Assembly (NCBI RefSeq): GCF_018282115.1
Contig: NZ_CP054306.1
Coordinates: forward strand, 977,488-1,041,487
Length of the DNA stretch: 64,000 nt
Source: Synechocystis sp. PCC 7338
GTDB taxonomy: Bacteria > Cyanobacteriota > Cyanobacteriia > Cyanobacteriales > Microcystaceae
Reading direction: 5' to 3'
Shown here: positions 1,704 through 62,787 of the stretch, one piece after another
Layout: each line of letters begins with the position of its first letter
Position numbering within the stretch: position 1 is the stretch's first letter
Position numbers and translations under genes: made by a program
The notes under the pieces: model-generated
The model's input: the letters and a program-made list of their open reading frames with translations, nothing else
Told to the model about the DNA's origin: nothing
The model's database searches: none

Positions 1704-2240
1704 ATGATTCGTTTGCCCGTGGTATTACCTCAAAGTTTTCTTCCCCCTCGTTTGCTATCTTGCCATTGGGGCTGGTTGGCGATCGTCTTGGCCTCCTTAT
1801 GGAGCTTATCTTCACTGCCTGTTAACACCGGTTCCTCGGTGGTGGCTCAAACGGCCCCTTCTAGCCCCATGACCGTTCGCTCTGACATCCAAGAGGCCAA
1901 CTCCCAAACTGGAGTGGTAACTGCCCGTGGTAACGTTCAAGTTTACTATCCTGCTCGCAATTTGCAAGCAACGGCGGCCCAGGCCCAGTATTTTTCCCAG
2001 GAGAGACGGTTAGTACTCAGCGGCAACGTCTATGTGCTCCAGGATGGCAACAGTATGCGGGCGGAAACCATGACCTATTTGGTGGATGAAGGGCGCTTCG
2101 TTGCTAACCCCGAAGCCAATCAACAGGTGGAATCGATTTATCTAGTGGAGGAGTCCCAAAATCCAGCCGGACCTTCCCCCACTGGCCCCAATCCCCTGCC
2201 TGGTGAAACTTTGCCGGATTTGCCTCCCCTGGGTTCTTAG
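1704..2240 (+). CDS. lptA: LptA/OstA-like lipopolysaccharide transport protein
   Basis: This 178-residue protein probably forms part of the periplasmic bridge that carries lipopolysaccharide from the inner to the outer membrane. The N terminus has a membrane or signal segment (GWLAIVLASLWSLSSL) ending in an Ala-rich cleavage region near VVAQTAPSS. The rest is one OstA-type beta repeat: VRSDIQEANSQTGVVTARGN, then YFSQERRLVLSGNVYV and MRAETMTYLVDEGRF. The C-terminal 25 residues are Pro-rich and probably disordered. The ABC ATPase gene next door (lptB) lies about 50 bases downstream on the same strand, the usual lptA-lptB arrangement, which supports the call. Confidence 0.85.
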   Translation: MIRLPVVLPQSFLPPRLLSCHWGWLAIVLASLWSLSSLPVNTGSSVVAQTAPSSPMTVRSDIQEANSQTGVVTARGNVQVYYPARNLQATAAQAQYFSQERRLVLSGNVYVLQDGNSMRAETMTYLVDEGRFVANPEANQQVESIYLVEESQNPAGPSPTGPNPLPGETLPDLPPLGS

Positions 2241-2293
2241 CTGTGGGATACTAACGGCATTCGGTGACAGGCTTTTTAGCGAGAACGGCGATC

Positions 2294-3022
2294 GTGACCT
2301 TAGTTTTAGAAAATATCCATAAACTCTACGGCAAACGTTGTGTGGTCAATCGGGTCAACGCCCAGGTCGCCCCTGGGGAAATTGTCGGTTTGCTGGGCCC
2401 CAACGGCGCCGGAAAAACCACTACCTTTTACATTGCTACGGGACTGGTAAAACCTAATACGGGTCGAGTGTGGCTCCACCAGCGGGACATCACGAATTTA
2501 CCCCTTAACCAGAGGGCCCATTTGGGCTTAGGTTATCTTACCCAGCAGGCCAGCGTCTTTCGTCAGTTGAGTGTGCGGGATAATATTCTCCTTGCCTTAG
2601 AACAAACTGGGGTGTCACCGCCCCTAAGAAAACATCGGCTTGAGCAACTATTGGCAGAATTTCGCTTGGAAAAGGTAGCTAACACCCAAGGCTCGCAAAT
2701 TTCCGGGGGAGAACGACGGCGCACTGAGCTGGCCCGGGCCCTGGCGATCGGGGTGGAAGGACCACAATTTTTATTGTTGGATGAACCCTTTGCTGGGGTT
2801 GATCCCATTGCTGTGGCGGAAATTCAGACCATCATTGCCCAGTTGCGGGAACGAAATATGGGTATTTTAATCACCGACCACAATGTGCGGGAAACCCTAG
2901 CCATCACCAACCGAGGTTACATTATGCGGGACGGGCAAATTTTGGCTTCCGGCAGTGCGGGAGAGTTATCGGAAAATCCTTTGGTGCGGCAATATTATCT
3001 GGGCGAAAAATTCCAGTTGTAA
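2294..3022 (+). CDS. lptB: LPS export ABC transporter ATPase LptB
   Basis: This is the cytoplasmic ATPase of the lipopolysaccharide exporter. The Walker A motif GPNGAGKT sits near residue 35, the signature ISGGERRR near 137 and Walker B LLLDEPFAGVDP near 160. The switch histidine is in ITDHNVRE. The wording of the last two motifs is typical of LptB. The GTG at 2294 is preferred over an upstream in-frame GTG at 2264 because LptB homology starts at LVLENIHKLYGKR. The gene follows lptA closely. The permeases LptF/G are not next to it here, since cobK follows. Confidence 0.93.
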   Translation: MTLVLENIHKLYGKRCVVNRVNAQVAPGEIVGLLGPNGAGKTTTFYIATGLVKPNTGRVWLHQRDITNLPLNQRAHLGLGYLTQQASVFRQLSVRDNILLALEQTGVSPPLRKHRLEQLLAEFRLEKVANTQGSQISGGERRRTELARALAIGVEGPQFLLLDEPFAGVDPIAVAEIQTIIAQLRERNMGILITDHNVRETLAITNRGYIMRDGQILASGSAGELSENPLVRQYYLGEKFQL

Positions 3023-3033
3023 GTACTCAAATC

Positions 3034-3819
3034 ATGGTGGATAACCTACCAAGCGTTTGGTTAATTGGCGGAACGGTGGATAGTCGCACGATCGCCGAGG
3101 AACTCATTACCCAGAGCATAGGTTGTCTGGTGACAGTCACGACCCCGGAGGCCAGGCACTTATATCCCATTCATCCTAGTTTAAGAGTTCACGTCGGAGC
3201 CTTAAGCCCGGAGGAAATACCAGCCTTTCTAGAACGCCACGGCATTACTGTCATTGTCGATGCTTCCCATCCTTTTGCGACCCAAATTACTGCCACCGTC
3301 ACGGCGATCGCCAAGGAAAGACATATTCCCTATATCCGATTTGAGCGCCCGCCTCTGGCGTTGGGAGAAAACACCCTGGAAGTGCCCGACGTTGATAGTT
3401 TAACCACCGGATCTTATCAAACATACCTAGTGGGTAAAAGGGTGTTACTGACCGTGGGCGCCCGCTGGTTGGGCCATTTCAGTACCCTGCATAGCCAAGC
3501 TCTTCTATTTGCCCGCACTCTGCCCTATCCCCAAGCCCTAGCCCAGGCGATCGCCGCCGGATTTACCTCCGACCGAATAATTGCCCTACGCCCCCCCGTA
3601 GCTGAATCGTTGGAAATCGCCCTATGGCAACAATGGCAAATCCAAGTGGTGGTCACGAAAGCCTCCGGTGCCCAAGGGGGAGAAGATGTAAAAAAAAGGG
3701 TAGCTCAAGCTTTGGGGGTAACTCTGATCAGAATTGCCCGACCCGAGAACAAAGTAGGGCAGACTGTGAATGATCTTTCTCCGATCTACCAGTTTTGTCA
3801 GAGTCATTTACGAACCTAA
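3034..3819 (+). CDS. cobK: Precorrin-6A reductase
   Basis: This 261-residue enzyme (CobK/CbiJ) reduces the corrin ring with NADPH during cobalamin synthesis. The N-terminal nucleotide-binding region has VWLIGGTVDSRTIAEEL followed by TVTTPEARHLYP. Family motifs follow: VIVDASHPFATQIT (the DASHPFA signature), IRFERPPL and, near the end, VVTKASGAQGGEDVKKRVAQAL. The ATG at 3034 is 11 bases after lptB, so the two may be cotranscribed although their functions are unrelated. No other cobalamin genes are in the window, which is normal for the scattered pathway in cyanobacteria. Confidence 0.93.
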   Translation: MVDNLPSVWLIGGTVDSRTIAEELITQSIGCLVTVTTPEARHLYPIHPSLRVHVGALSPEEIPAFLERHGITVIVDASHPFATQITATVTAIAKERHIPYIRFERPPLALGENTLEVPDVDSLTTGSYQTYLVGKRVLLTVGARWLGHFSTLHSQALLFARTLPYPQALAQAIAAGFTSDRIIALRPPVAESLEIALWQQWQIQVVVTKASGAQGGEDVKKRVAQALGVTLIRIARPENKVGQTVNDLSPIYQFCQSHLRT

Positions 3820-4003
3820 ATGTGACAATTGGCCAGAGGCTTTGTTAAGTATTGCAACGAGATTTTCCTGGGAAGCAAAGGTGAACCTTAAGATAAAACT
3901 TTTAACGTTGGTTTGGTCGCCATTGTCGCCCAATGCCTAATGGTGGATGCCATCGCCGTTAAAAATAGTCTTAAAATCATCGTTTACGATCAAGGAGAAC
4001 TCA

Positions 4004-4264
4004 ATGCATAGCTTTTTATTGGCCACCGCCGTTCCCGCTACCCTGTCCTGGAGCCCCAAAGTTGCTGGGGTAATGATTGCTTGCAACATTTTGGCGATCG
4101 CCTTTGGTAAATTCACTATCAAACAACAAAGTGTGGGCACCCCCATGCCTTCCCCCAATTTCTTTGGTGGATTTGGTTTAGGGGCTGTGCTGGGCACTGC
4201 CAGCTTTGGCCACATCCTCGGCGCTGGAGTAATCCTGGGATTGGCAAATATGGGAGTACTTTAA
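4004..4264 (+). CDS. psaK: Photosystem I subunit PsaK1
   Basis: This is an 86-residue thylakoid membrane protein at the edge of photosystem I, with two transmembrane helices. The sequence starts MHSFLLATAVPATLSWSP and contains the first helix (VAGVMIACNILAIAFG), a Pro-rich stromal loop (VGTPMPSPNFFGGFG) and the second helix (HILGAGVILGLANMGVL). It matches the PsaK1 of Synechocystis as I remember it. The ATG at 4004 has an AAGGAG ribosome-binding site at 3992-3997. Longer in-frame extensions upstream would add unrelated charged residues and are rejected. A strong terminator follows at 4315. Confidence 0.96.
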   Translation: MHSFLLATAVPATLSWSPKVAGVMIACNILAIAFGKFTIKQQSVGTPMPSPNFFGGFGLGAVLGTASFGHILGAGVILGLANMGVL

Positions 4265-4314
4265 GACTTAGTTCTGAATAGACTAGCTTTTATCCTTTGG
4301 GAAAATATTAAAGG

Positions 4315-4343
4315 CGATCGGGCCAAAAGCCTGATCGTTTTTT
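4315..4343 (+). terminator. Intrinsic terminator of psaK1
   Basis: A 9-bp stem (CGATCGGGC with GCCTGATCG, one G-U pair) closes a short A-rich loop. Six Ts follow directly at 4338-4343. It lies 50 bases after the psaK1 stop. Confidence 0.8.
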
Positions 4344-4485
4344 GCTAGGGATTAGGGAAAATGCCAAAACGCACCAAGGTGGTAATTATCGCTCCGATGA
4401 CGGCAAGAATCAACGCTCAAATTTGAGCATTAGAGCCTGTTTTAAAAGCCCTCCTGAACCCCCAAATTTGTGGGGAAACTGAGTA

Positions 4486-4520
4486 AAAGTCCCCCAGTAT
4501 TGCCGGAGCTTTAGGGGGCG
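4486..4520. repeat. Remnant of a dispersed palindromic repeat
   Basis: The segment runs from AAAGTCCCCCAGTATT to GCTTTAGGGGGCG. It resembles a short intergenic palindrome (AAAGTCCCCC ... TTTAGGGGGC) that I remember seeing repeatedly in cyanobacterial genomes. The two arms are imperfect here, so it looks decayed. Only one copy is in the window, so the repeat status rests on memory. Confidence 0.4.
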
Positions 4521-4696
4521 GAATAAAACTTTCCAAACACGTTCTTAGCCCGCCCTTTGACATTTTTAACATCATCCTTGACTGCAACTATCTCCATGTT
4601 GACCGCAGACAACTCGGTTTTAACCGTTGCCATATCAATCTTGAGGGAAGTTACCTGTTTTTGGAGATGGTCGAGTTTAGTCTTAATTTCCCCCAA
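4511..4696 (-). CDS. Short coiled-coil reading frame, probably a gene fragment
   Basis: This 61-codon frame starts MGEIKTKLDHLQKQ and continues with heptad-like hydrophobic spacing (VTSLKIDMATVKTELSAVNMEIVAVKDDVKNV), so the product would be a helical coiled coil. Its last codons lie inside the palindromic repeat remnant at 4486-4520. That suggests a longer gene was cut. Similar short coiled-coil proteins of unknown role are common in cyanobacteria. It could equally be an intact small protein. No function is proposed. Confidence 0.35.
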   Translation of the reverse strand: MGEIKTKLDHLQKQVTSLKIDMATVKTELSAVNMEIVAVKDDVKNVKGRAKNVFGKFYSAP

Positions 4697-4777
4697 GATC
4701 TCCTTTCAATCGGTTTCTATGGTCACACTCATTAGCTGTTGCCTTCAAAGCCAAAGGAATATTTCCTGCTACCCCTA

Positions 4778-6343
4778 CTAGGGTAAATCATGGGAAATGG
4801 CGATCGCCGCAGTGTCTTCCGTTTGCTGAAGGGCTGTCTGCAACATCTTGGTGCTGACCACAGAGTCAGTGGCTAAGTTAAAGAGGGGGTTGGCAAGAAT
4901 ACCGGCTAGGGAGGTGGCCACCAGGGTAGCGACAATGCCTACCTGTAGGGGACGCATACCAGGCAAATTCCATTTGATGGCCGGATAATTTTTGATTACG
5001 TCGGACATTTCCTGAGGTTCCTTCACCACCATCATTTTTACCACTCTAATGTAGTAGTAGATGGAAACAACGCTTGTGACCAAGCCGAGGAGAACTAAGC
5101 CGTACAATCCTGACTGCCAACCGGCCCAGAAGATGTAAATTTTGCCGAAAAAGCCTGCAAGGGGGGGGATACCACCCAGGGACAATAAACAAATGCTCAA
5201 GCCTAGGGTGAGTAGAGGATCTTTGTGGTAGAGACCGGCATAATCACTAATTTGGTCACTGCCAGTGCGGAGAGTAAAGAGGATGATGCAACTAAACGCC
5301 CCCAGGTTCATAAACAGGTAAATAAGAAGGTAAAACACCATGCTGGCGTAACCATCTTCACTGCCGGCCACTAGGCCAATCATCACAAAGCCCGCCTGAC
5401 CAATGGAAGAGTAGGCCAACATCCGTTTCATGCTGGTTTGGGCCAGGGCCACCACGTTGCCCAGCACCATGCTCAACACTGCCAGAGCTGTGAAAATAAC
5501 GTGCCATTCATCGGTAATGCCACCAAAGGCGGTCACCAACAACCGAATGGCCACTGCAAAACCAGCCGCCTTAGATCCCACCGAAAGAAAAGCTACCACT
5601 GGGGTGGGAGAACCTTCGTAAACGTCGGGGGTCCATTGGTGGAAGGGCACAGCGGAAATTTTAAAGGCAATACCGGCAATGACAAAGACTAGGGCGATCG
5701 CCAGACCGAGGGATTGACCCATACTGTCGGCATTGACTAACTTTTCCGCAATTAATACCAACTGGGTTTCGCCGCCGGACAAACCGTAGAGCAGGGAAAG
5801 ACCGTAAAGAAAAATGGCAGAACTAGAAGCACCAATGAGCAAATATTTCAACGCCGCTTCATTGGAACGGGGGTCCCGTTTCATGTAACCGGTCATTAGG
5901 TAGGAGGAAATACTGAGCATTTCCAGGGAGATGAAAATCATCACCAACTCGTTGGCCGCCGAGAGGAACATGCCCCCTAAGGTGGCGGTGAGCAAAATGG
6001 CAATGAATTCCGCCAAGGAAGTCCCCGTTTGTTGGACGTAGCGCACCGACATCAAAATGGTGACAACGGTGGACAGGGCAATGATGCCTCGGAAAATAAC
6101 GCTGAGGTTATCCCCGTTAAAAGCGCCGATAAAACCGATGGGATCCGCCATGGACCAGGAAGTAACTAGCAAACCCACCGACACTAATAAACCGGCGATC
6201 GCCAGATAGGGCAGGGCCAAAGCTACCTTTCGTCCTCCAATCAAATCCACAATTAGCACAAGCAGGAGAGTGACAATAACAACGCCCTCCGGCAAAATTG
6301 TCCCCGCATTGAGTTGCGCTGCAACGTTACTAGAAAAGTCCAT
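4778..6343 (-). CDS. ndhB: NAD(P)H-quinone oxidoreductase (NDH-1) subunit 2
   Basis: This is a 521-residue polytopic thylakoid and cytoplasmic membrane subunit of NDH-1, which carries respiratory and cyclic photosynthetic electron flow and supports CO2 uptake. It has about 14 hydrophobic helices and the antiporter-like core. Motifs include [17 protein letters not shown], the [16 protein letters not shown] helix, the conserved Lys-containing [22 protein letters not shown] and [16 protein letters not shown]. The ATG at 6343 gives the length and N terminus ([20 protein letters not shown]) of the Synechocystis protein. An in-frame upstream start at 6454 would add 37 unrelated residues. The gene stands alone, as ndhB does in cyanobacteria. 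Confidence 0.97.
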
Positions 6344-50870: not shown

Positions 50871-51875
50871 ATGACGGCTCAAAATCCACTATCTCCCCGA
50901 CAGCTTGAGCGATTACTGGCAATTGATGAATATATTCGCTCACCTATTCGTTATACAGCAAAGATAATTGCTGAAAAACTAAGTGTTGCGGAAAGAACAA
51001 TTCGTCTTGACTTTGCTTTTTTACGTGAGCGTTTTAATGCCCCCCTCGAATTTAGTCAGGCACGAGGCTACTACTACTCTGATAATGACTGGCGTTTACC
51101 AACTATTCCCTTAACCCAAGGGGAATTATTTGCTTTAACGTTGGGAGCAAGGGCATTAGAAGCTTATTCTGGGTCTGCTTATGAAGCGGAATTGCAATCA
51201 TCTATTAAACAGTTAGCAGCCCGTTTACCGGAAAAGGTTTGGGTGGATTTAGAACGATTAGTCGACGAGCGGATTCACTTTCGGTCAGGGGCAGGATTGT
51301 TAAATCTTGACCCGGATATTTATCAGGTCTTACATGAGGCTTGGAGGTCGTCACGGTCATTATGGATGCGCTATTACACCGCAGGCAGGAATGAAGAATC
51401 GGAACGTATTGTTGACCCCTATTATTTGGATATTTATCGGGGCAGTAATCCCTATTTAGTTGCTTTTTGTCATAATCGCCAAGCATTTCGGGAATTCCGT
51501 TTAGACCGCATCCGAGAATATCGAATCCTCGATGAATTCTTTGAACCTGACCCTAACTTTGATTGGAAAAAATACAGTAAGAATGCGTTTCAAGTAGAAA
51601 AGGGCGATCGCCTCCATAAAATAACAATTCTATTTTCTGCGAAGTCTGCACCTTTTATCCGAGAGCGGGAGTGGCATCCTTCCCAAAGGATTGATGAGTA
51701 TCCCGACGGGTCTTTAACGTTGTATCTGGAAGTGGGAGGACTTCAGGAAGTGAAGCGTTGGGTGTTAGGTTACGGCAAGGATGCTTTGGCCAAGTCTCCA
51801 CCAGAACTGGTCAAATTGCTTCAGGAAGAGACTGAGGCAATGGCCCGACAAAATGAAACAGGAGTTTTTGAATGA
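50871..51875 (+). CDS. WYL-domain transcriptional regulator of the CRISPR-Cas locus
   Basis: This 334-residue regulator has an N-terminal winged helix-turn-helix (RQLERLLAIDEYIRSPIRYTAKIIAEKLSVAERTIRLDFAFLRERF, residues 10-56). A WYL domain follows from about 150, with LWMRYYTAGRNEESERIVDPYYLDIYRGSNPYLVAFCHNRQAFREFRLDRIREY. WYL proteins bind ligands or nucleic acids and often regulate CRISPR-Cas genes. One is known to repress a Synechocystis CRISPR system (Sll7009). Here it is the first gene of the cas operon, and its stop overlaps the cas6 start by 4 bases. Self-regulation of the operon is therefore the natural model. Confidence 0.9.
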   Translation: MTAQNPLSPRQLERLLAIDEYIRSPIRYTAKIIAEKLSVAERTIRLDFAFLRERFNAPLEFSQARGYYYSDNDWRLPTIPLTQGELFALTLGARALEAYSGSAYEAELQSSIKQLAARLPEKVWVDLERLVDERIHFRSGAGLLNLDPDIYQVLHEAWRSSRSLWMRYYTAGRNEESERIVDPYYLDIYRGSNPYLVAFCHNRQAFREFRLDRIREYRILDEFFEPDPNFDWKKYSKNAFQVEKGDRLHKITILFSAKSAPFIREREWHPSQRIDEYPDGSLTLYLEVGGLQEVKRWVLGYGKDALAKSPPELVKLLQEETEAMARQNETGVFE

Positions 51876-52519
51876 TGAATTTTTTAGAGCTTCAATTTTT
51901 GCTGAGAGGTAAAATACTTCGAGCAGATCATGGCTACGCTCTTTACTCAGCAATTAAGCAAATTTGCCAAGCTCAAGAAATAGAAATTTCCCCAGAGATT
52001 TTAATTTCTAGCATTCCTGGTATTGGCGATAAACAAGGAATGATCTATCTAAATCGTCATTCTCGCTTTCAGTTGCGTTGCCCTGCAGAACAAGCTCAAA
52101 CTTGGTATCGCGCTCTTCAAAATCAAGTGCTAGATATACAGGGCAATTTGATTCGATTGATTCAGCCTCGTTTAACGATTGTTCAATCTCAGTCTGTTTT
52201 AACCTCTCGCCTAGTGGTGATTAAGTTAGAAGAATGGAATAACCACACTGCACCGCAATATTTTCTTGAATCCTGTCAAAAAGGTTTAGAAAGGCTAAAC
52301 ATTCAGGGTCAACCCTTTATTGAAAGTAGTGTTGACGGTAATCTAGCCCGGCGATCTCTCCGAATTCATGGCAAGCACGTTATGGGTTTTGGGGTCACAG
52401 TGGAAGGTTTAAGTGATGAGGATTCTGTCAAATTGCAATGTTTAGGGCTAGGCGGTCGAGGTCACTTTGGATGTGGTTGGTTCTACCCAAAAAAGGAGGG
52501 GATCGAAAATGTTACCTAA
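51872..52519 (+). CDS. cas6: CRISPR RNA endonuclease Cas6
   Basis: This 215-residue RAMP protein would cut the precursor CRISPR RNA within each repeat. It begins MMNFLELQFLLRGKILRADHGYALYSAI; the His near residue 20 is a possible catalytic residue. It ends with the glycine-rich RNA-binding loop VKLQCLGLGGRGHFGCGWFYP. The pattern fits the Cmx6-like Cas6 of Myxan-type systems. It overlaps the WYL gene by 4 bases and cas3 by 11 bases. The repeat has a strong GCC/GGC hairpin suitable as its substrate. Confidence 0.9.
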   Translation: MMNFLELQFLLRGKILRADHGYALYSAIKQICQAQEIEISPEILISSIPGIGDKQGMIYLNRHSRFQLRCPAEQAQTWYRALQNQVLDIQGNLIRLIQPRLTIVQSQSVLTSRLVVIKLEEWNNHTAPQYFLESCQKGLERLNIQGQPFIESSVDGNLARRSLRIHGKHVMGFGVTVEGLSDEDSVKLQCLGLGGRGHFGCGWFYPKKEGIENVT

Positions 52520-54779
52520 ATTAAAACCTGATTGCTTATTGGCTAAATCCTATGAGCCAGGACACTGGAAAGGGTCTTATAGTTTGGTTGGTCATACTGC
52601 TGATGTCGTTAATGCTGTCACCGCTTTAGTCGATATACTCGGCGATCGCCTACTGCAACAGTTTGGCTTGACCTGTGATTTAGATTATTTGAGAAATACG
52701 GCAAAACTCGCGGCATATCTGCATGATTGGGGTAAAGCAAACGACCATTTTCAAGGCATGGTGCGCTCAAAAATACCTGGAACCTCTCCCCAACGAGAGC
52801 TAAATCAGCATCAAATGTTACGCCATGAAGTGGTTTCTGTTCTTCTAGCTTGGGAATTTCGAGACTGGTTACAACAGGCTGATGGTGATTTTTATACGGC
52901 CTTGGTTGCGGCCGGTGGTCATCATCTTAAATTGGGAGGCAACGGTGGGAAATGTACTGATAATTTTGGTGAAATTAAGCAAAGTGGTGATGTAGAAATG
53001 TCGCTTTATTTTTTACATCCAACTTTCAAAAGTTTACTGAAGTATGGTGTCAAAATCCTAAAAGGTTTGCCTGAAAAGCTTAAACTTTCAATAACTCCGT
53101 CTCAAAGTTGGACAGTGACGGATATCAAACAAAAACGCCAGAAAATTAAGGAAGCCCTAGAAGAACAGCCTATTGATCCAGTTCTCTGTGCAGTCATTAA
53201 AGCACTTTTAGTCGCAGGAGATTGTTCGGCTTCAGCATTTCCAAATGTGACGTTACCAAAGAAAGATGGTAAGCAACCAACCTATGAGCAATGGCTTAAA
53301 GAGGAAGTTACAACCACACTCGATAAAAATAAACTAGACCGAGTGATTAAGGAACGTTTAGCGGGTCATTCCCTAAGACCCTTTCAAGAAAATCTAGGTA
53401 ACATCAAAAGTCGAGTAGCGATCGCCAGAGCAGGATGCGGAACAGGAAAAACGTTAGGAGCTTATAACTGGGCTAAAACCCATGCCATCGGTCGGAAACT
53501 CTTTTTCTGTTATCCCACCACGGGAACCAGTACCGAAGGTTTTATTGATTACGTTCATGGAAAGATAGAGGCAGAATTATTTCATTCTCGCTATCAAGTC
53601 GATTTGGAGATGATGAAAACTGGCGAAGAAGAGGAACTGGATTCAGGGTCAGAAGTGGCTATCAAACTTGAATCCTTCCGGGCCTGGGGAGCAGAGTCAG
53701 TGGTTTGCACAGTGGACACTGTACTCGGTTTATTTCAATGTAATCGTCGTCCGCTCTACTGTTTTCCGGCGATCGCCAACGCGGCCTTTGTTTTTGATGA
53801 AATTCATTGCTACGATGCCAAACTTTTTTGGACGCTACTGCGTTTCTTAACAGTGGTTAAAGCACCAGTTTTATTGATGTCAGCATCCATCTTGCCCTGG
53901 CAAAAAACAGCGATTGAAGATGCAGTGGGTGAACCCATTCAAATTATTGAAGGGCCAAAAGAAATTGAAACCCAAGCTCGTTATCGATTTGAACTGAAAG
54001 AAGAAGCGAATTGGGAACGGGTGGAGCAGGAATTAAAAGAGGGTGGAAAAGTGCTCTGGGTTTGCAATCAGGTTAATACGGCGATCGCCGTTTATGAAGA
54101 AACGAAAAGGCGAGGGTTAGAAGCCTTGCTCTATCACAGTCGCTATCGCTATCAGGATCGGGTTAGGCATCATCGTGCCGTGGTAGATGCGTTTAAACCC
54201 GACCAGAAAAAACCCATCATTGCTATCTGTACCCAAGTGGCAGAAATGTCATTAGATTTATCTGCCACCCTATTGGTTTCTCAGATTGCCGACCCAGCGG
54301 GGTTAATACAACGCTTAGGACGTTTAAATCGAAGGTATTGTGGTCATGCCCTTGATGCCCTGTTCTATCCCGATGAAAAAGAGGGGTTTCCTTACAGTTC
54401 CGCTACGTTAGCCGAAGGAAAGGCAATGCTTGAAAGTTTTACGGGAGAGGTCAATCAAGCTCAGCTTGCTCAATGGCTAGAGGAGTTTACCCCAGAACCA
54501 AAGGCTATTGACGATGACTTGGATTTGGTTTGGTTGGATGGTCATTGGCGAACTTATCCCGCTTCGTTGCGGCAGGCAGGACACAACATCACAGTGCTTC
54601 TAGAGCAAGATTTGCCGACCATTAAAACTTTGCCTGCTAAAGACATTCCCAAATATACCGTCCCCATTCCAATGAATAAATGGAAGCCTAAAGAAAAGTA
54701 CAAATTTTATCCCATCGCTCCAACGGATATTTGGTCTTACACCGAAGAAATTGGTGCCAAACAACGAGGAGGTAAATAG
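52509..54779 (+). CDS. cas3: CRISPR effector nuclease-helicase Cas3
   Basis: This 756-residue protein degrades target DNA recruited by Cascade. The N-terminal HD nuclease has VGHTADVVNAV (His29), YLHDWGKANDHFQG (His72-Asp73) and AAGGHHLKLGG. The SF2 helicase follows with AGCGTGKTLGAYNWA near residue 310, FDEIHCYD near 430, LLMSASIL, VLWVCNQVNTAI and the arginine-finger motif IQRLGRLNRR. All catalytic motifs seem intact. ATG 52509 overlaps the cas6 end; an earlier in-frame codon at 52467 is less likely. The next gene begins 2 bases after the stop. Confidence 0.95.
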   Translation: MLPKLKPDCLLAKSYEPGHWKGSYSLVGHTADVVNAVTALVDILGDRLLQQFGLTCDLDYLRNTAKLAAYLHDWGKANDHFQGMVRSKIPGTSPQRELNQHQMLRHEVVSVLLAWEFRDWLQQADGDFYTALVAAGGHHLKLGGNGGKCTDNFGEIKQSGDVEMSLYFLHPTFKSLLKYGVKILKGLPEKLKLSITPSQSWTVTDIKQKRQKIKEALEEQPIDPVLCAVIKALLVAGDCSASAFPNVTLPKKDGKQPTYEQWLKEEVTTTLDKNKLDRVIKERLAGHSLRPFQENLGNIKSRVAIARAGCGTGKTLGAYNWAKTHAIGRKLFFCYPTTGTSTEGFIDYVHGKIEAELFHSRYQVDLEMMKTGEEEELDSGSEVAIKLESFRAWGAESVVCTVDTVLGLFQCNRRPLYCFPAIANAAFVFDEIHCYDAKLFWTLLRFLTVVKAPVLLMSASILPWQKTAIEDAVGEPIQIIEGPKEIETQARYRFELKEEANWERVEQELKEGGKVLWVCNQVNTAIAVYEETKRRGLEALLYHSRYRYQDRVRHHRAVVDAFKPDQKKPIIAICTQVAEMSLDLSATLLVSQIADPAGLIQRLGRLNRRYCGHALDALFYPDEKEGFPYSSATLAEGKAMLESFTGEVNQAQLAQWLEEFTPEPKAIDDDLDLVWLDGHWRTYPASLRQAGHNITVLLEQDLPTIKTLPAKDIPKYTVPIPMNKWKPKEKYKFYPIAPTDIWSYTEEIGAKQRGGK

Positions 54780-54781
54780 TA

Positions 54782-56296
54782 ATGACAACAATGATTCTTT
54801 CTCTCTTTAATCCCAATAGTTTATTACCCCATCGGGCTGGCGTTGCCGGTTTAGCATTAGCGTTATCTGGCCTTGACGAAAAAGATGCTCCCTTACAGTG
54901 GGAAGTCACCGACGATGAAGTGCGACTCAGTTGGGAATGTACCGATAAAGAAGCTATTCAGTGGCTAATGTCACAAACTTATCAAATCAAGGATGGTTTT
55001 ATTGCCATACCCTTTCTAAAATTAGATGAACAGAGTTTATACATTTTCACCAATGGATTGACTTCAACATTTTTGCAATATCAGAAACAACGTAAATTTG
55101 ATTCAAATACTCAATCAAAGAGTTTTAAGATAGATGAGAATCAGCCAGAAGTTCGCTTAGATAATTACCGACCCGTTTTAAGTTGTTATTACACTGGAGA
55201 TTTTAAAGAGGCATTTAATACCAGAGGTAATTTTAAAAAAGAAATTCCCTTAAAAAGTCATCATTTACCCGGCCTTATTGAAGATTTTAGTAACGGAGCT
55301 TATAAAGAATCACCTGAAAATTACTTGGCTTTATTATTTCTTCCCATTGCCTGTCAATACTACCAATTGCCGGGTTATTTATCCGCGTTAGTTATTCCTG
55401 CCGTTATGAATTTGCCCGCCTGGGTTAACCGTCGTAAAGTTGCTCGAGGTAAGACCGCACAAAAACTGACTCCCTATGGAGAGTTTCGAGCCAATGGTGC
55501 TGGAGAATCTGCCTTACGATTTCTTTTACAGGAGAAACTCATTGAAGACTCCCAAGAGTTTCGTGTGAACTACTGTGAGGTTTATCGCCTAGGCAAGCAA
55601 CCCTGGGATGGCAATCAATCTTATTTAAAACAGGAGGTTTATCGAGTTCATGTCACTGATCAAGTGTTGGAGCTATATCAAAATGCTTGGCAATTATTTC
55701 CTGCTGTTGTCCGTAAAACTCAAGACAAAGATGGGGAGAAAACTTGGTTAGCCGCTTCCAAAGTCTTGCCGTGGATTGCGGATAACTTAATTGTCAATAA
55801 ACGCTGGTATGAGGGCTTTTTTTCATTCCGTAAAACCAATGAAATTTATGAACGTAAAGGATTAACTCAAATGACCAATTATCTTGACCCGCTTGAACAG
55901 ACTTTTTTTGATGCGATTAAAGGAGGATTTAGCACTTATTTACACGGACAAATTGAACAAGCAAATAAACAAGGACGTAAATTAGATTACCCACAAGTTA
56001 CTAAAAAGATAATCTATCTTTTGCAACGCCCCAACACACAACTTGAATTTGCTGGTGCAGTAGTGGATTTTCTCAGTCGGAATCCCAATAAAGCGGCCCG
56101 TGGTGCTGGCCCTGAAATTTACCAATGGCTACACCGCGATCGCCACTGGAAACAAGCTCGTGATCTAGCACTACTGGCGATCGCCACCTATGAGGGCAAA
56201 AACAAGCAGGGGGAAACGGAAGTTCCTGAAGAAATTCTGGATCAGGCTATCCCAGATACCGAATCTGAAAGCGGTCTTGAACTAGAGCTTGCCTAG
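54782..56296 (+). CDS. cas8: Cascade large subunit Cas8 (Myxan type, DevT-like)
   Basis: This 504-residue protein occupies the large-subunit position. It starts MTTMILSLFNPNSLLPHRAGVAGLALALSGL and includes LPGYLSALVIPAVMNLPAWVNRRKVARGKTA, the N-terminal type of Cas8a1/Csx13 proteins from dev-like systems. The large subunit recognises the target-adjacent motif and helps Cas3 loading. The identification rests on position, size and recalled family pattern, since Cas8 proteins are poorly conserved. Two HIP1 sites near its 3' end suggest long residence in cyanobacteria. The gene begins 2 bases after cas3, and a 47-base gap precedes cas7. Confidence 0.85.
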   Translation: MTTMILSLFNPNSLLPHRAGVAGLALALSGLDEKDAPLQWEVTDDEVRLSWECTDKEAIQWLMSQTYQIKDGFIAIPFLKLDEQSLYIFTNGLTSTFLQYQKQRKFDSNTQSKSFKIDENQPEVRLDNYRPVLSCYYTGDFKEAFNTRGNFKKEIPLKSHHLPGLIEDFSNGAYKESPENYLALLFLPIACQYYQLPGYLSALVIPAVMNLPAWVNRRKVARGKTAQKLTPYGEFRANGAGESALRFLLQEKLIEDSQEFRVNYCEVYRLGKQPWDGNQSYLKQEVYRVHVTDQVLELYQNAWQLFPAVVRKTQDKDGEKTWLAASKVLPWIADNLIVNKRWYEGFFSFRKTNEIYERKGLTQMTNYLDPLEQTFFDAIKGGFSTYLHGQIEQANKQGRKLDYPQVTKKIIYLLQRPNTQLEFAGAVVDFLSRNPNKAARGAGPEIYQWLHRDRHWKQARDLALLAIATYEGKNKQGETEVPEEILDQAIPDTESESGLELELA

Positions 56297-56343: not shown

Positions 56344-57201
56344 ATGACCCAGCATCTTTTTGCCAATATCGTGACCCCCACTGCTGTTGCCGCCAATAAT
56401 CGGGGTGAAGGAGATGGGAGTACCCTGTCAACACTCCAAAAAATCACCCGTGGTATTGACCAGTACACAACAGTGAGTGCTGAAGCTATCCGCTGGGCTT
56501 ATCGGGAATATTTCCAGCAGCATCATGGGGACACAACGAATCGCAGTTTTGATCCAGATGCCGATAGGTATGAATTTAAAACCGAAGTCTTCAATGCCGA
56601 GCAGTACATTGATGATGATCTATTTGGTTATATGGATGCCAAAAAAGGTTCAGATAATAAAGATGCAACCACCAAGCGCCGGGGAGCTTTGGAAATTAGC
56701 CGAGCTATTAGTCTTGATCCCTATTGGGGCGATATTGCGTTTGGTTCTAAAGGTGGCGAAAAAAATAAGACTTCTATCCATCAAACAGAGGTTCACTGTA
56801 CTGCCTATCAATATACGTTGGCTGTTACCCCTTCCCACCTGAAAAAGATCGAACGGGCTGAGTATTTATTGGAGGCGATCGCCGCTATTCGCCATGTGGG
56901 GGGTAATCATTCCCGTTTTCTCTATGAATTTCGGCCAGAATCCATTGTTTTGCGGGTTACAGAAGATCCGAGTCCCTGGATTATGGGCTGTTTTGAACGG
57001 GTAGGAGATTCTATTGGTTGTGCTAAATTAGTTCGCTTAGTTGAAGTGGGTGATATTCCTGCGTCAGAATTAATTGTGGGCGGGGAAATCGTGCAAACGC
57101 CCTACAGTGACCAACTTAAAAAGCTCGGTGTTACCGTACAGGGAGGAGTTAAGTCGGCGATCGCCGAAGCGAAAAAGCATCTCTCCATCGTAGTTCCCTA
57201 A
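56344..57201 (+). CDS. cas7: Cascade backbone protein Cas7 (DevR-like)
   Basis: This 285-residue RAMP protein polymerises along the crRNA. The DevR/Cas7 pattern is evident: MTQHLFANIVTPTAVAANNRGEGDGSTLSTLQKITRG at the start, RWAYREYFQQ, then KRRGALEISRAISLDPYWGDIAFGSKGG and EVHCTAYQYTLAVTPSHLKKIERAEYLLEAIAAIRHVGGNHSRFLYEF. A good ribosome-binding region (AAGGATTTAACGG) precedes the ATG. In relatives it is directly followed by cas5. Here two TA genes come between. Confidence 0.92.
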   Translation: MTQHLFANIVTPTAVAANNRGEGDGSTLSTLQKITRGIDQYTTVSAEAIRWAYREYFQQHHGDTTNRSFDPDADRYEFKTEVFNAEQYIDDDLFGYMDAKKGSDNKDATTKRRGALEISRAISLDPYWGDIAFGSKGGEKNKTSIHQTEVHCTAYQYTLAVTPSHLKKIERAEYLLEAIAAIRHVGGNHSRFLYEFRPESIVLRVTEDPSPWIMGCFERVGDSIGCAKLVRLVEVGDIPASELIVGGEIVQTPYSDQLKKLGVTVQGGVKSAIAEAKKHLSIVVP

Positions 57202-57230
57202 AATCTAATTAATAATCAGGAGTTAATTCT

Positions 57231-57470
57231 ATGACCAGTATTCAAATCGCTCATCACACCTGGGATCAGTTATTGGATTTGGCTAAGCAACGTAACCTTT
57301 CCCTTGATGACTTTCTTGAAAAAATCATTCAAGGACAACTGGCTATTATTGATGCTGAAGAGCTAGAAGACTTAAGAGATATTCATGATGCAATCCTAGC
57401 GGAATCAGATCCCGATAATGCGAAAACAATCCCCTGGGAGGTTGTTAAGCAGGAGCTAGGTTATCAATGA
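57231..57470 (+). CDS. RelB-like antitoxin inside the cas operon
   Basis: This 79-residue protein begins MTSIQIAHHTWDQLLDLAKQRNLSLDDFLEKIIQGQ, a helical DNA-binding type N terminus. It ends DIHDAILAESDPDNAKTIPWEVVKQELGYQ, the usual end of antitoxins paired with RelE-type toxins. The AGGAG ribosome-binding site lies 9 bases before the ATG. It starts 29 bases after cas7 on the same strand and overlaps the toxin gene by 4 bases (ATGA). It should both neutralise the toxin and possibly repress transcription. No terminator separates it from cas7. Confidence 0.88.
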   Translation: MTSIQIAHHTWDQLLDLAKQRNLSLDDFLEKIIQGQLAIIDAEELEDLRDIHDAILAESDPDNAKTIPWEVVKQELGYQ

Positions 57471-57727
57471 ATCCCTATCGTATTGAAGTCCTGAAATCAG
57501 CTCAAAAGTCATTCTCTAAACTCCCGAAGGACATTCAGGCTCGGATAGTTCAAAAAATTGATAACTTAGCTATTAATCCTTATCCTACTGATACTAAAAA
57601 ATTAAAAAATGGCAATGGACTTTTTCGCGTTCGTGTTGGTGATTATCGCATTATCTACAAAGTTCAAGATAACGAATTGGTCATCTTAATTGTAAAAGTT
57701 GCCCATCGTCGAGAAGTTTATGATTAA
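57467..57727 (+). CDS. RelE-like toxin inside the cas operon
   Basis: This 86-residue toxin has the full RelE/ParE-superfamily pattern: YRIEVLKSAQKSFSKLPKDIQARIVQKIDNLAINP, LKNGNGLFRVRVGDYRIIYKVQDNELVILIVKVAHRREVYD. The Arg and Tyr residues of RelE-type mRNA interferases are in FRVRVGDYRIIY and HRREVY. It appears intact. Its last eight bases (ATGATTAA) contain the cas5 start codon, so the toxin and Cas5 are translationally coupled. That makes it an integral operon gene and not a bystander. Confidence 0.92.
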   Translation: MNPYRIEVLKSAQKSFSKLPKDIQARIVQKIDNLAINPYPTDTKKLKNGNGLFRVRVGDYRIIYKVQDNELVILIVKVAHRREVYD

Positions 57728-58355
57728 TCTCTTTTATCTGGATTGTCCCTGCACAAATTTTCCTCGGAGTTTTGCCAGGGATTATAAAGAAACATATCTT
57801 TATCCGCCCCCTTCCACGGTTTATGGTTTTCTCCTATCTTTAGTTGGGGAAGAAAATTTAACTGCCCATTTGGGCGTAAAGATCGCCATTGGCTTGATTG
57901 GTGATCCTCCACCTATTTCAAGAATTGTTCGTAAGCAACGTCACCACAAGTTTAGTAAACAACGCTTGGGAAGTTATCCGAGTAGTAAATTTTCCAAGCC
58001 AAATCATCAGGAATTACTCACTGATTTGAAGGTCGCTCTCAAAGTTGATTCTTCAGGCGAGAAATCTAAAATTACTCTAGCCGACCGGGTGGCGATCGCC
58101 GTCTCTACACCGGAAGAAATTACCCGTTTTGGGGGCCTGTCCCTCGGGGAATCCTGGGCAATGGTGAATGGAATTCGTCCCTATCGACCAGAAGATGGCG
58201 ATATTAGATGGCTGATGAAAGATAATCGTGGTCTCATTGGTTTGCCGGTTTGGATTGATCGAAAAACAACTCAGGGGACATTCCAGCGGTTTACTCTGGA
58301 GAAAATGCAAGAATTTCGTGATGCGGCTTGGATCACGATTAAAGCTAATCATTAA
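57720..58355 (+). CDS. cas5: Cascade subunit Cas5 (DevS-like)
   Basis: This 211-residue RAMP protein caps the 5' end of the crRNA in Cascade. It starts MINLFYLDCPCTNFPRSFARDYKETYLYPPPSTVYGFLLSLVGEE, with the aromatic and PPPSTVYG pattern of Cas5. It ends TFQRFTLEKMQEFRDAAWITIKANH. The ATG at 57720 lies inside the relE stop region. A longer in-frame start at 57699 would overlap relE further. The gene is separated from cas7 by the RelBE pair, which is unusual for this system type. Confidence 0.92.
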   Translation: MINLFYLDCPCTNFPRSFARDYKETYLYPPPSTVYGFLLSLVGEENLTAHLGVKIAIGLIGDPPPISRIVRKQRHHKFSKQRLGSYPSSKFSKPNHQELLTDLKVALKVDSSGEKSKITLADRVAIAVSTPEEITRFGGLSLGESWAMVNGIRPYRPEDGDIRWLMKDNRGLIGLPVWIDRKTTQGTFQRFTLEKMQEFRDAAWITIKANH

Positions 58356-58423: not shown

Positions 58424-58636
58424 ATGATTAGTCGTGAACAATTTAAAGCTGAATTAGATTCTGTTGATGGTCTAACGATCAATATTTTACATGGCGTTAT
58501 GGTTGCTCTTAAGCAAAAAGTATCCACTTCTCCAAATCAAGCTGATTGGTCAACCAACAATCCCCTTAAAAATAGTATTGTCTATGAAAACGATGTTTTG
58601 AGTCTTATCGATGAAAATTGGGATGCAGAACGATGA
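58424..58636 (+). CDS. Antitoxin of a decayed PIN-toxin pair
   Basis: This 70-residue frame (MISREQFKAELDSVDGLTINIL ... NNPLKNSIVYENDVLSLIDENWDAER) resembles antitoxins that accompany VapC/PIN toxins. The C-terminal PLKNSIVYENDVLSLIDENWDA pattern is typical. It overlaps the following toxin remnant by 4 bases. The toxin is destroyed, so the antitoxin is an orphan. It lies between cas5 and cas4-cas1 on the operon strand. Confidence 0.65.
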   Translation: MISREQFKAELDSVDGLTINILHGVMVALKQKVSTSPNQADWSTNNPLKNSIVYENDVLSLIDENWDAER

Positions 58637-58713
58637 TTGTTTTAGATACTCACGCATGGTTTTGATGGGTAGCAGAATCACCTAAAATTTCTCGTATTTA
58701 TTTTCACCCCTGA
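58633..58713 (+). pseudogene. VapC/PIN toxin remnant
   Basis: The frame opens MIVLDTHAWF, the standard start of a PIN-domain toxin with its first catalytic Asp. A TGA at 58663-58665 then stops it. In the same frame the sequence resumes WVAESPKISRI, which is what a PIN protein would have next, before a second stop at 58711-58713. The remaining 100 or so codons are deleted. The toxin is dead by both nonsense mutation and truncation. Confidence 0.75.
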
Positions 58714-58736
58714 AAGATTTTTGCAGGGGTCTTTTT
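58706..58736 (+). terminator. Intrinsic terminator between cas5 and cas4-cas1
   Basis: ACCCCTG (58706-58712) pairs perfectly with CAGGGGT (58724-58730) around an 11-base loop and is followed by CTTTTT. It would end transcription of the interference module before the adaptation genes. Confidence 0.8.
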
Positions 58737-62049: not shown

Positions 62050-62448
62050 TCAAGACTGAAATGGGAAGTGTTGGAGTAAACGCACCTGGGCAATCGTCTC
62101 AAAATCGCGATCATTGTGAACCAACAGTAAATCATTCTCCAAAGCAACTTGAGCGATACAGCAATCAATTGGACTGCGAACCGTTAGCCCCTGACGACGC
62201 AAATCATAGAAAATTCGCGCTGCCTTTTGCCAGGAATCATTTGTCAGTTCCACGTAGTCCTGAATTTCAAGATAGGTGGAAAGAAGCATCCACTCTTTTT
62301 CATTCAAACTCCCCTGAAGCAGTTCAAGCTGAGTGAAACGTGCTAGAAAAACACCACGATCGCCAATTAGTGTTTCGAGTTGTTGACGGACTTGGCGTGT
62401 GCGGTCGCGGAAGACACTGATCCACACAGAAGTATCAATCAGTAGCAT
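62050..62448 (-). CDS. vapC: VapC-like PIN-domain toxin inside the array region
   Basis: This 132-residue PIN nuclease carries all acidic residues: MLLIDTSVWISVFRD (first Asp), FTQLELLQGSL (Glu), TVRSPIDCCIAQVAL (Asp) and LLVHNDRDFETIAQV (Asp). Such toxins cleave tRNA or rRNA. It is encoded opposite to the cas operon. ATG 62448 overlaps the antitoxin end by 14 bases. It lies between repeat 14 and the last repeat, so it interrupts the array. It appears intact. Confidence 0.92.
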   Translation of the reverse strand: MLLIDTSVWISVFRDRTRQVRQQLETLIGDRGVFLARFTQLELLQGSLNEKEWMLLSTYLEIQDYVELTNDSWQKAARIFYDLRRQGLTVRSPIDCCIAQVALENDLLLVHNDRDFETIAQVRLLQHFPFQS

Positions 62449-62647
62449 GACGAGTCTGGCGCAGGTCTTTGTGGTCGAAATCCTCGGCAAACTGAATTTG
62501 CCCTGCGAGATCGAGCAGGTTTTTCTTGCGGCGTGATCGCACAAATTCTTCTAGGGCAAGGTTAAGCAGTTCTTCCTTAGTCGAAAGATGGGTAAGTCGA
62601 AAAGCCTTGTTAAGGAGGGAATCGTCTAGGTTAATAGTGATTTGCAT
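62435..62647 (-). CDS. vapB: VapB-like antitoxin inside the array region
   Basis: This 70-residue protein has a ribbon-helix-helix N terminus (MQITINLDDSLLNKAFRLTHLSTKEELLNLALEEFVRSRRKKNLLDLAGQI), typical of VapB antitoxins of the DUF2191 kind. The toxin-binding tail (FAEDFDHKDLRQTRHATD) follows. It precedes and overlaps vapC. It lies 105 bases from the detached repeat at 62752, leaving room for its own promoter there. Confidence 0.88.
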   Translation of the reverse strand: MQITINLDDSLLNKAFRLTHLSTKEELLNLALEEFVRSRRKKNLLDLAGQIQFAEDFDHKDLRQTRHATD

Positions 62648-62751
62648 AAGGTGATCGTGCAACTCATTTGTTTCAAGGGGTTTGGAGTAAATTATAGCCG
62701 AGTGCTTATAGACCAATCATTGCTGAAAGGGAAAAAAAATTTTGGATCGCG

Positions 62752-62787
62752 GTGTCCAAACCATTGATGCCGTAAGGCGTTGAGCAG
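62752..62787 (+). CRISPR. Detached terminal CRISPR repeat
   Basis: This single 36-bp repeat has the GTGTCC variant start and a changed last base (GAGCAG instead of GAGCAC). It lies 7 bases from the uvrB stop codon and 786 bases from repeat 14. Degeneration at the end is typical of the oldest, leader-distal repeat. Confidence 0.92.

Follow-up and report, generated by a model that had tools for sequence, protein, structure and literature searches.

Why should a toxin–antitoxin (TA) pair sit between two genes of a CRISPR (clustered regularly interspaced short palindromic repeats) effector operon? The question is raised by Synechocystis sp. PCC 7338, in a stretch of 64,000 nucleotides (nt) of contig NZ_CP054306.1 (positions 977,488–1,041,487, forward strand; here 'the window'), where a relB–relE pair with intact reading frames (57231–57727) separates cas7 from cas5 in a cas operon of type I-MYXAN. 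Loss of CRISPR loci is frequent, and the question of what retains them is open; the RNA guards of CreTA have answered it in some systems. With slightly more confidence than doubt, we read this RelBE from its sequence and setting as a functional type II TA system, expressed in the cas operon and acting in cis as an addiction module, at a junction that would serve as a slot for the capture and exchange of such modules.

A first-pass annotation of the window had described an intact RelBE pair built into the cas operon between cas7 and cas5, and the open reading frames, coordinates and spacing all bear this out. It had also placed the antitoxin 29 bases past cas7 and the relE stop across the cas5 start, and both can be read directly from the sequence: 29 nt lie between the end of cas7 at 57201 and the start of relB at 57231, and the relE–cas5 overlap of 8 nt has the geometry expected of the translational coupling that had been proposed. 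The relB and relE genes themselves overlap by 4 nt (ATGA). A consensus scan of the gap between cas7 and relB revealed no promoter-like site, which is weak evidence. The features of the junction are as follows.

56344–57201, plus strand: cas7 (DevR/Cst2 family; TIGR02585, E 4.6e-36), the upstream flank of the slot.
57218–57222, plus strand: AGGAG, a Shine–Dalgarno-like sequence 8 nt ahead of the relB start.
57231–57470, plus strand: relB, intact antitoxin gene (79 amino acids, aa), assigned from weak RHH_4 and RelB-like matches, orthologues and purifying selection.
57467–57727, plus strand: relE, intact toxin gene (86 aa), matching Pfam ParE_toxin (PF05016, 2e-15) and, at 30.1 bits against a cut-off of 27.9, NCBIfam RelE_StbE (TIGR02385).
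57720–57727, plus strand: ATGATTAA, 8 nt in which the relE stop overlaps the start of cas5, read from the sequence and equalled in length in locus L083 (loci of the survey described below are numbered with an L).
57720–58355, plus strand: cas5 (Cmx5/DevS), ATG at 57720 (TIGR02586, 3.7e-29, just below cut-off), the downstream flank of the slot.

Profile comparison also places the protein with known RelE structures, 2khe coming first (2e-13), followed by 3g5o, 1wmi and 4v7k, the last being that of E. coli. Residues R54, R56, R61, H80, R81, R82 and Y85 are invariant in RelE across six cas-linked copies; on the strength of an alignment, we take them to correspond to the catalytic set of E. coli RelE. 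RelB gives only weak, sub-threshold matches to RelB and RHH antitoxin models, and its orthologues at the same junction are 50–65% identical to it. Both genes are under purifying selection: between the window and L083 the ratio of non-synonymous to synonymous differences per site (pN/pS) is 0.32 for relB and 0.19 for relE, the cas genes giving 0.13–0.22, and over the pairs compared the values for relB and relE (0.09–0.35) fall within the range of cas5. A pseudogene or decaying pair in the window is rejected by the intact frames and the purifying selection, and a recent duplication within the genome by the fact that the sole other relE-like match there is 39% identical and has an internal stop. 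In our reading, RelBE would be a working type II TA system.

Is the arrangement peculiar to one strain? A scan of genome contigs with the Cas7 of the window gave 18 loci, in six of which this junction holds an orthologue of relBE, so that a one-off insertion can be rejected; because the pair recurs at this junction in other genomes, its position is not a matter of chance. Far from being absent from every other strain carrying the locus, an outcome for which the first-pass annotation had allowed, relBE is present in other genomes with it, and the comparison of junctions that the annotation had proposed shows other TA families there too. Further searches (at phylum, family, order and class level, and of larger stretches) provided 75 cyanobacterial loci with both cas7 and cas5, the window included; many of the relatives are metagenome-assembled. 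As had been asserted, the two genes are normally neighbours: they lie less than 150 nt apart in 55 of the 75 loci, and in 41 of those 55 they overlap. The remaining 20 junctions are wide (a gap of more than 150 nt), and 17 of them hold a TA module or its remnant, always on the cas strand. No ordinary (non-TA) gene was found in any of the 20, three of which hold no recognisable gene. Four unrelated TA families share the slot, distributed as follows.

relBE, intact: window, L083, L104, L105, L106, L110, L115, L119.
relE remnant: L120.
VapB-like antitoxin with PIN toxin: L082, L085, L092.
MNT-HepT: L123; decayed in L099 and L151.
DUF433-DUF5615: L150, L102.

RelBE is identical in L105 and L110, which are thus not independent, and the slot of L102 also keeps a relB without relE, together with a duplicated 5′ fragment of cas5.

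Other junctions of the same operons gave 82 gaps of more than 150 nt, of which, counted liberally, about ten contain a gene for a toxin, an antitoxin or a toxin/immunity function. The difference between 10 of 82 and 17 of 20 is large (Fisher p 7e-10), but this test overstates the certainty, since the loci are related by descent and the panel for the search was drawn up after the contents had been seen. The TA-like genes at these other junctions comprise DUF433-DUF5615 (L121 and L152, with a fragment in L150), MNT-HepT (L114), single or broken TA components (window, L122, L124, L150), and, at the junction of cas5 with cas4-cas1 in L090 and L091, a gene for a papain-fold toxin (Tox-PL-2) accompanied by a small partner, the two perhaps forming a toxin–immunity pair. 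The rest hold nothing recognised or genes of three other kinds: Uma2 genes after cas5 (the label being our own reading of the sequences); a DUF559 gene (Pfam) repeatedly found between cas8 and cas7 (L095, L103, L113, L115, L118, L128, L129); and, between cas3 and cas8 in inserts of about 500 nt (L093, L095, L098, L106, L111, L127), a protein of about 85 aa that has no Pfam match and is, by our reading, helix-turn-helix-like. A more distant I-MYXAN locus (L163, genome G749) also carries a relBE from the family found in the slot, there placed between cas5 and cas4-cas1.

The contents of the cas7–cas5 slot have changed often. On a tree of Cas8-Cas7-Cas5, on which L151 was scored as empty (its decayed MNT-HepT having been found afterwards), the state of the slot changes at least 12 times and the presence of TA at least 10 times. 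The window forms one clade, with full support, with L082, L083 and L092, each having relBE or VapB-PIN and none an empty slot; the closest relative of the window has VapB-PIN in the same position, the branch uniting the window with L082 being moderately supported (81/63). The approximately unbiased (AU) test, applied to groups defined by their TA state rather than taken from the tree, rejects a grouping of the window with L083 (both relBE; p 0.019) and of L082 with L092 (both VapB-PIN; p 0.0003), and from the rejection of both same-TA groupings it follows that one TA type has replaced another. A possible route is visible in L115, which is 95% identical to L118 upstream and yet has relBE: the last 200-odd bases of its cas7 and the first 100-odd bases past cas7 (the start of relB) are 98–100% identical to L104, and its cas5 is mostly L118-like again. 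From this mosaic of L118-like and L104-like sequence we conclude that recombination within the neighbouring cas sequence can bring relBE in. In the lineage of the window the pair is evidently old, as synonymous sites of the cas genes are saturated or nearly so in comparison with L083, though relBE of the two is still 76%/65% identical. A single ancestral insertion for all cas-linked relBE is unsupported; the cas and relE trees disagree, and one relE clade is not rejected.

How might such a pair hold an operon in place? The genes relB and relE would be transcribed within a unit comprising cas6, cas3, cas8, cas7, relB, relE and cas5, and RelB would neutralise RelE for as long as the operon was expressed. 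With the supply of antitoxin dependent on the operon, its loss or silencing would free the toxin: after deletion, disruption or silencing, RelB, if as labile as is supposed, would decay first, and the freed RelE would then be expected to cut mRNA and halt growth, so that cells losing the locus would be selected against. The cas7–cas5 junction, for its part, would capture modules and swap them through recombination in the flanking cas sequence, with other TA families at times replacing them. Addiction seems the best-fitting idea because the only genes recognised in the slot are TA modules, which are exchanged for one another, and the co-directional order, with the antitoxin first and tight spacing, agrees with it. 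A bolder version, in which the junction in cyanobacterial I-MYXAN loci is a dedicated slot for interchangeable protein TA guards protecting the Cascade genes (a counterpart of CreTA made of proteins, whose toxin family changes over time but whose guarding role is kept), is in our opinion doubtful.

Several observations weigh against the addiction reading. Most relatives have no TA in the slot, so the module has been dispensable over evolution, and the remnants in L120, L102, L099 and L151 indicate that modules can be lost. Members of the relBE family are common in cyanobacteria and occur also at unrelated loci elsewhere on chromosomes, and in the relE tree cas-linked copies are interspersed with other chromosomal ones (a cas-linked clade is unsupported, although a single one is not rejected; p 0.24). 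Nor are the cas genes of TA-bearing loci better preserved, an idea that we reject: a broken cas gene was seen in 5 of 14 such loci and in 15 of 58 others, a crude and weak count, the genomes being drafts in which many apparent breaks may be draft errors or artefacts of alignment extension.

If the module were addictive, who would benefit? Inserts at an overlapping cas7–cas5 junction might be harmful and be purged unless addictive, in which case TA modules would be parasites of the operon that bring no gain to CRISPR. This shares the addiction step with the explanation that we prefer and differs from it in the beneficiary, and it accounts for the TA-only content of the slot equally well, without any guard function. 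The overlap of cas7 with cas5 in 41 of the 55 TA-free loci speaks for it, as does the consistent absence of non-TA genes from the slot; so too does the way in which TA inserts often restore coupled spacing (overlaps of 8 nt in the window and L083, and of 4 nt in L123). The occurrence of TA modules at other junctions (L121, L152, L163) is less readily accommodated, and we regard such survival at a costly site as possible, with the chances against it. More passively, TA pairs, in which cyanobacterial genomes abound, might land in cas operons and persist with no effect on the retention of the CRISPR locus; the slot would then seem special only through the spread of existing inserts by recombination between cas7 and cas5 sequences. 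The relBE family is found widely away from cas loci, 69 type II TA pairs are present in Synechocystis 6803 alone (PMC4963859), transfer mediated by recombination was observed in L115, and the TA state is patchy. What this leaves unexplained is why the cas7–cas5 junction, where the genes usually overlap, has received TA modules only when roomier junctions hold mostly other genes, and why both relB and relE are under purifying selection; we consider it rather unlikely. RelBE as a working TA system may be compatible both with a benefit to CRISPR, as a protein analogue of CreTA, and with the TA module being a mere hitchhiker.

Two further possibilities give the pair a more active part. RelE might be freed when phage or anti-CRISPR activity shuts off the operon or damages its transcript, and thereby abort infection. 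The co-directional place of the pair inside the Cascade operon would tie antitoxin supply to operon expression, and CRISPR-linked guards with a similar logic are known as RNA systems (PMC10097628, PMC9458426), but nothing in the sequence speaks for this, the transcript-damage version included, and a phage that shuts off its host would release every chromosomal TA in the same way; it strikes us as improbable. Alternatively, relBE might set the level of Cas5, through autoregulation by RelB or cleavage of the transcript by RelE, as the linked translation implied by the relE–cas5 overlap could permit. Against this, unrelated TA families share the slot and most loci manage without any, and we attach very little weight to it.

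The closest functional analogue of the addiction that we envisage is the RNA-based CreTA (PMC9458426, PMC10097628, PMC12737573), likewise a TA element that is housed in a type I cas locus and renders the cell dependent on the cas genes (PMC9458426, PMC10097628, PMC8730458). CreTA, however, consists of two RNAs, with degenerate ectopic repeats, and is repressed by Cascade, whereas the pair in the window consists of two proteins; apart from the array and the repeat at its end, the window yielded no ectopic CRISPR repeat, and on this ground the pair is rejected as a CreTA. In gene order, sizes, overlaps, RelE family and conserved residues it resembles chromosomal and plasmid RelBE systems, from which it differs in lying inside a cas operon, without a recognisable promoter of its own, and in overlapping cas5. 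Many type II TA pairs are located on pSYSA, the CRISPR-carrying replicon of Synechocystis 6803, where a role in plasmid maintenance has been proposed (PMC4963859); these are described as plasmid-located, and we have not seen insertion between cas genes described for them. The L092 locus, on a plasmid of NIES-970, joins the two situations, with TA both on a CRISPR plasmid and between cas genes. Makarova et al. (2012) associated toxin-like nucleases, including RelE and PIN, with CRISPR loci, in immunity loci without typical antitoxins (PMC3506569), whereas the window has a whole pair, antitoxin included, in a type I operon. In the open-access papers searched, no account of TA modules at the cas7–cas5 junction came to light. 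If a single position in a type I effector operon does repeatedly capture whole protein TA modules and exchange them among unrelated families, addiction to CRISPR could be assembled from everyday TA components and may be commoner than supposed, which would run counter to the opinion that typical antitoxins are missing from CRISPR loci. Relatives with TA, without TA and with different TAs offer ready-made comparisons.

The surrounding locus has, in order on the plus strand, a WYL regulator gene (50871), cas6, cas3, cas8/Cmx1, cas7/DevR, relB, relE, cas5/DevS, cas4-cas1, cas2 and a CRISPR array with 36-nt repeats (from 60996). The type I-MYXAN gene set is thus present (Cmx6, Cas3, Cas8a1/Cmx1, DevR, DevS, Cas4-Cas1 MYXAN and Cas2, with the array), and window proteins score above the cut-offs of the NCBIfam models Cmx6, Cmx1, DevR and Cas1_MYXAN. 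Features other than those of the slot are as follows.

51872–56296, plus strand: cas6, cas3 and cas8 (Cmx1), the remainder of the effector operon (TIGR02807, TIGR01587, TIGR03485).
58424–58680, plus strand: remnant of a second TA pair 3′ of cas5, with an intact VapB-like antitoxin reading frame (58424–58636) and a PIN toxin frame cut short by a stop 10 codons in.
58706–58736, plus strand: hairpin and T run resembling an intrinsic terminator, ahead of cas4-cas1 (fold z-score −2.76; absent from the pattern-scan list).

The VapB-like antitoxin of the remnant is homologous to the slot antitoxins of L085, L082 and L092. In a search of viral contigs, which yielded one distant cas cluster, no TA was found in the cas7–cas5 junction of that cluster; the contig (L195, IMGVR_UViG_3300031857_000091, 1881–5373) has I-MYXAN-type cas6, cas8, cas7 and cas5 one after another, cas6 being followed by cas8 without an intervening cas3. 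Lastly, the window has a vapBC pair (62050–62716, minus strand) beside uvrB, between the CRISPR array and a slightly diverged last repeat (62752–62787); this repeat is 822 bases further on, so vapBC apparently lies within the distal end of the array.
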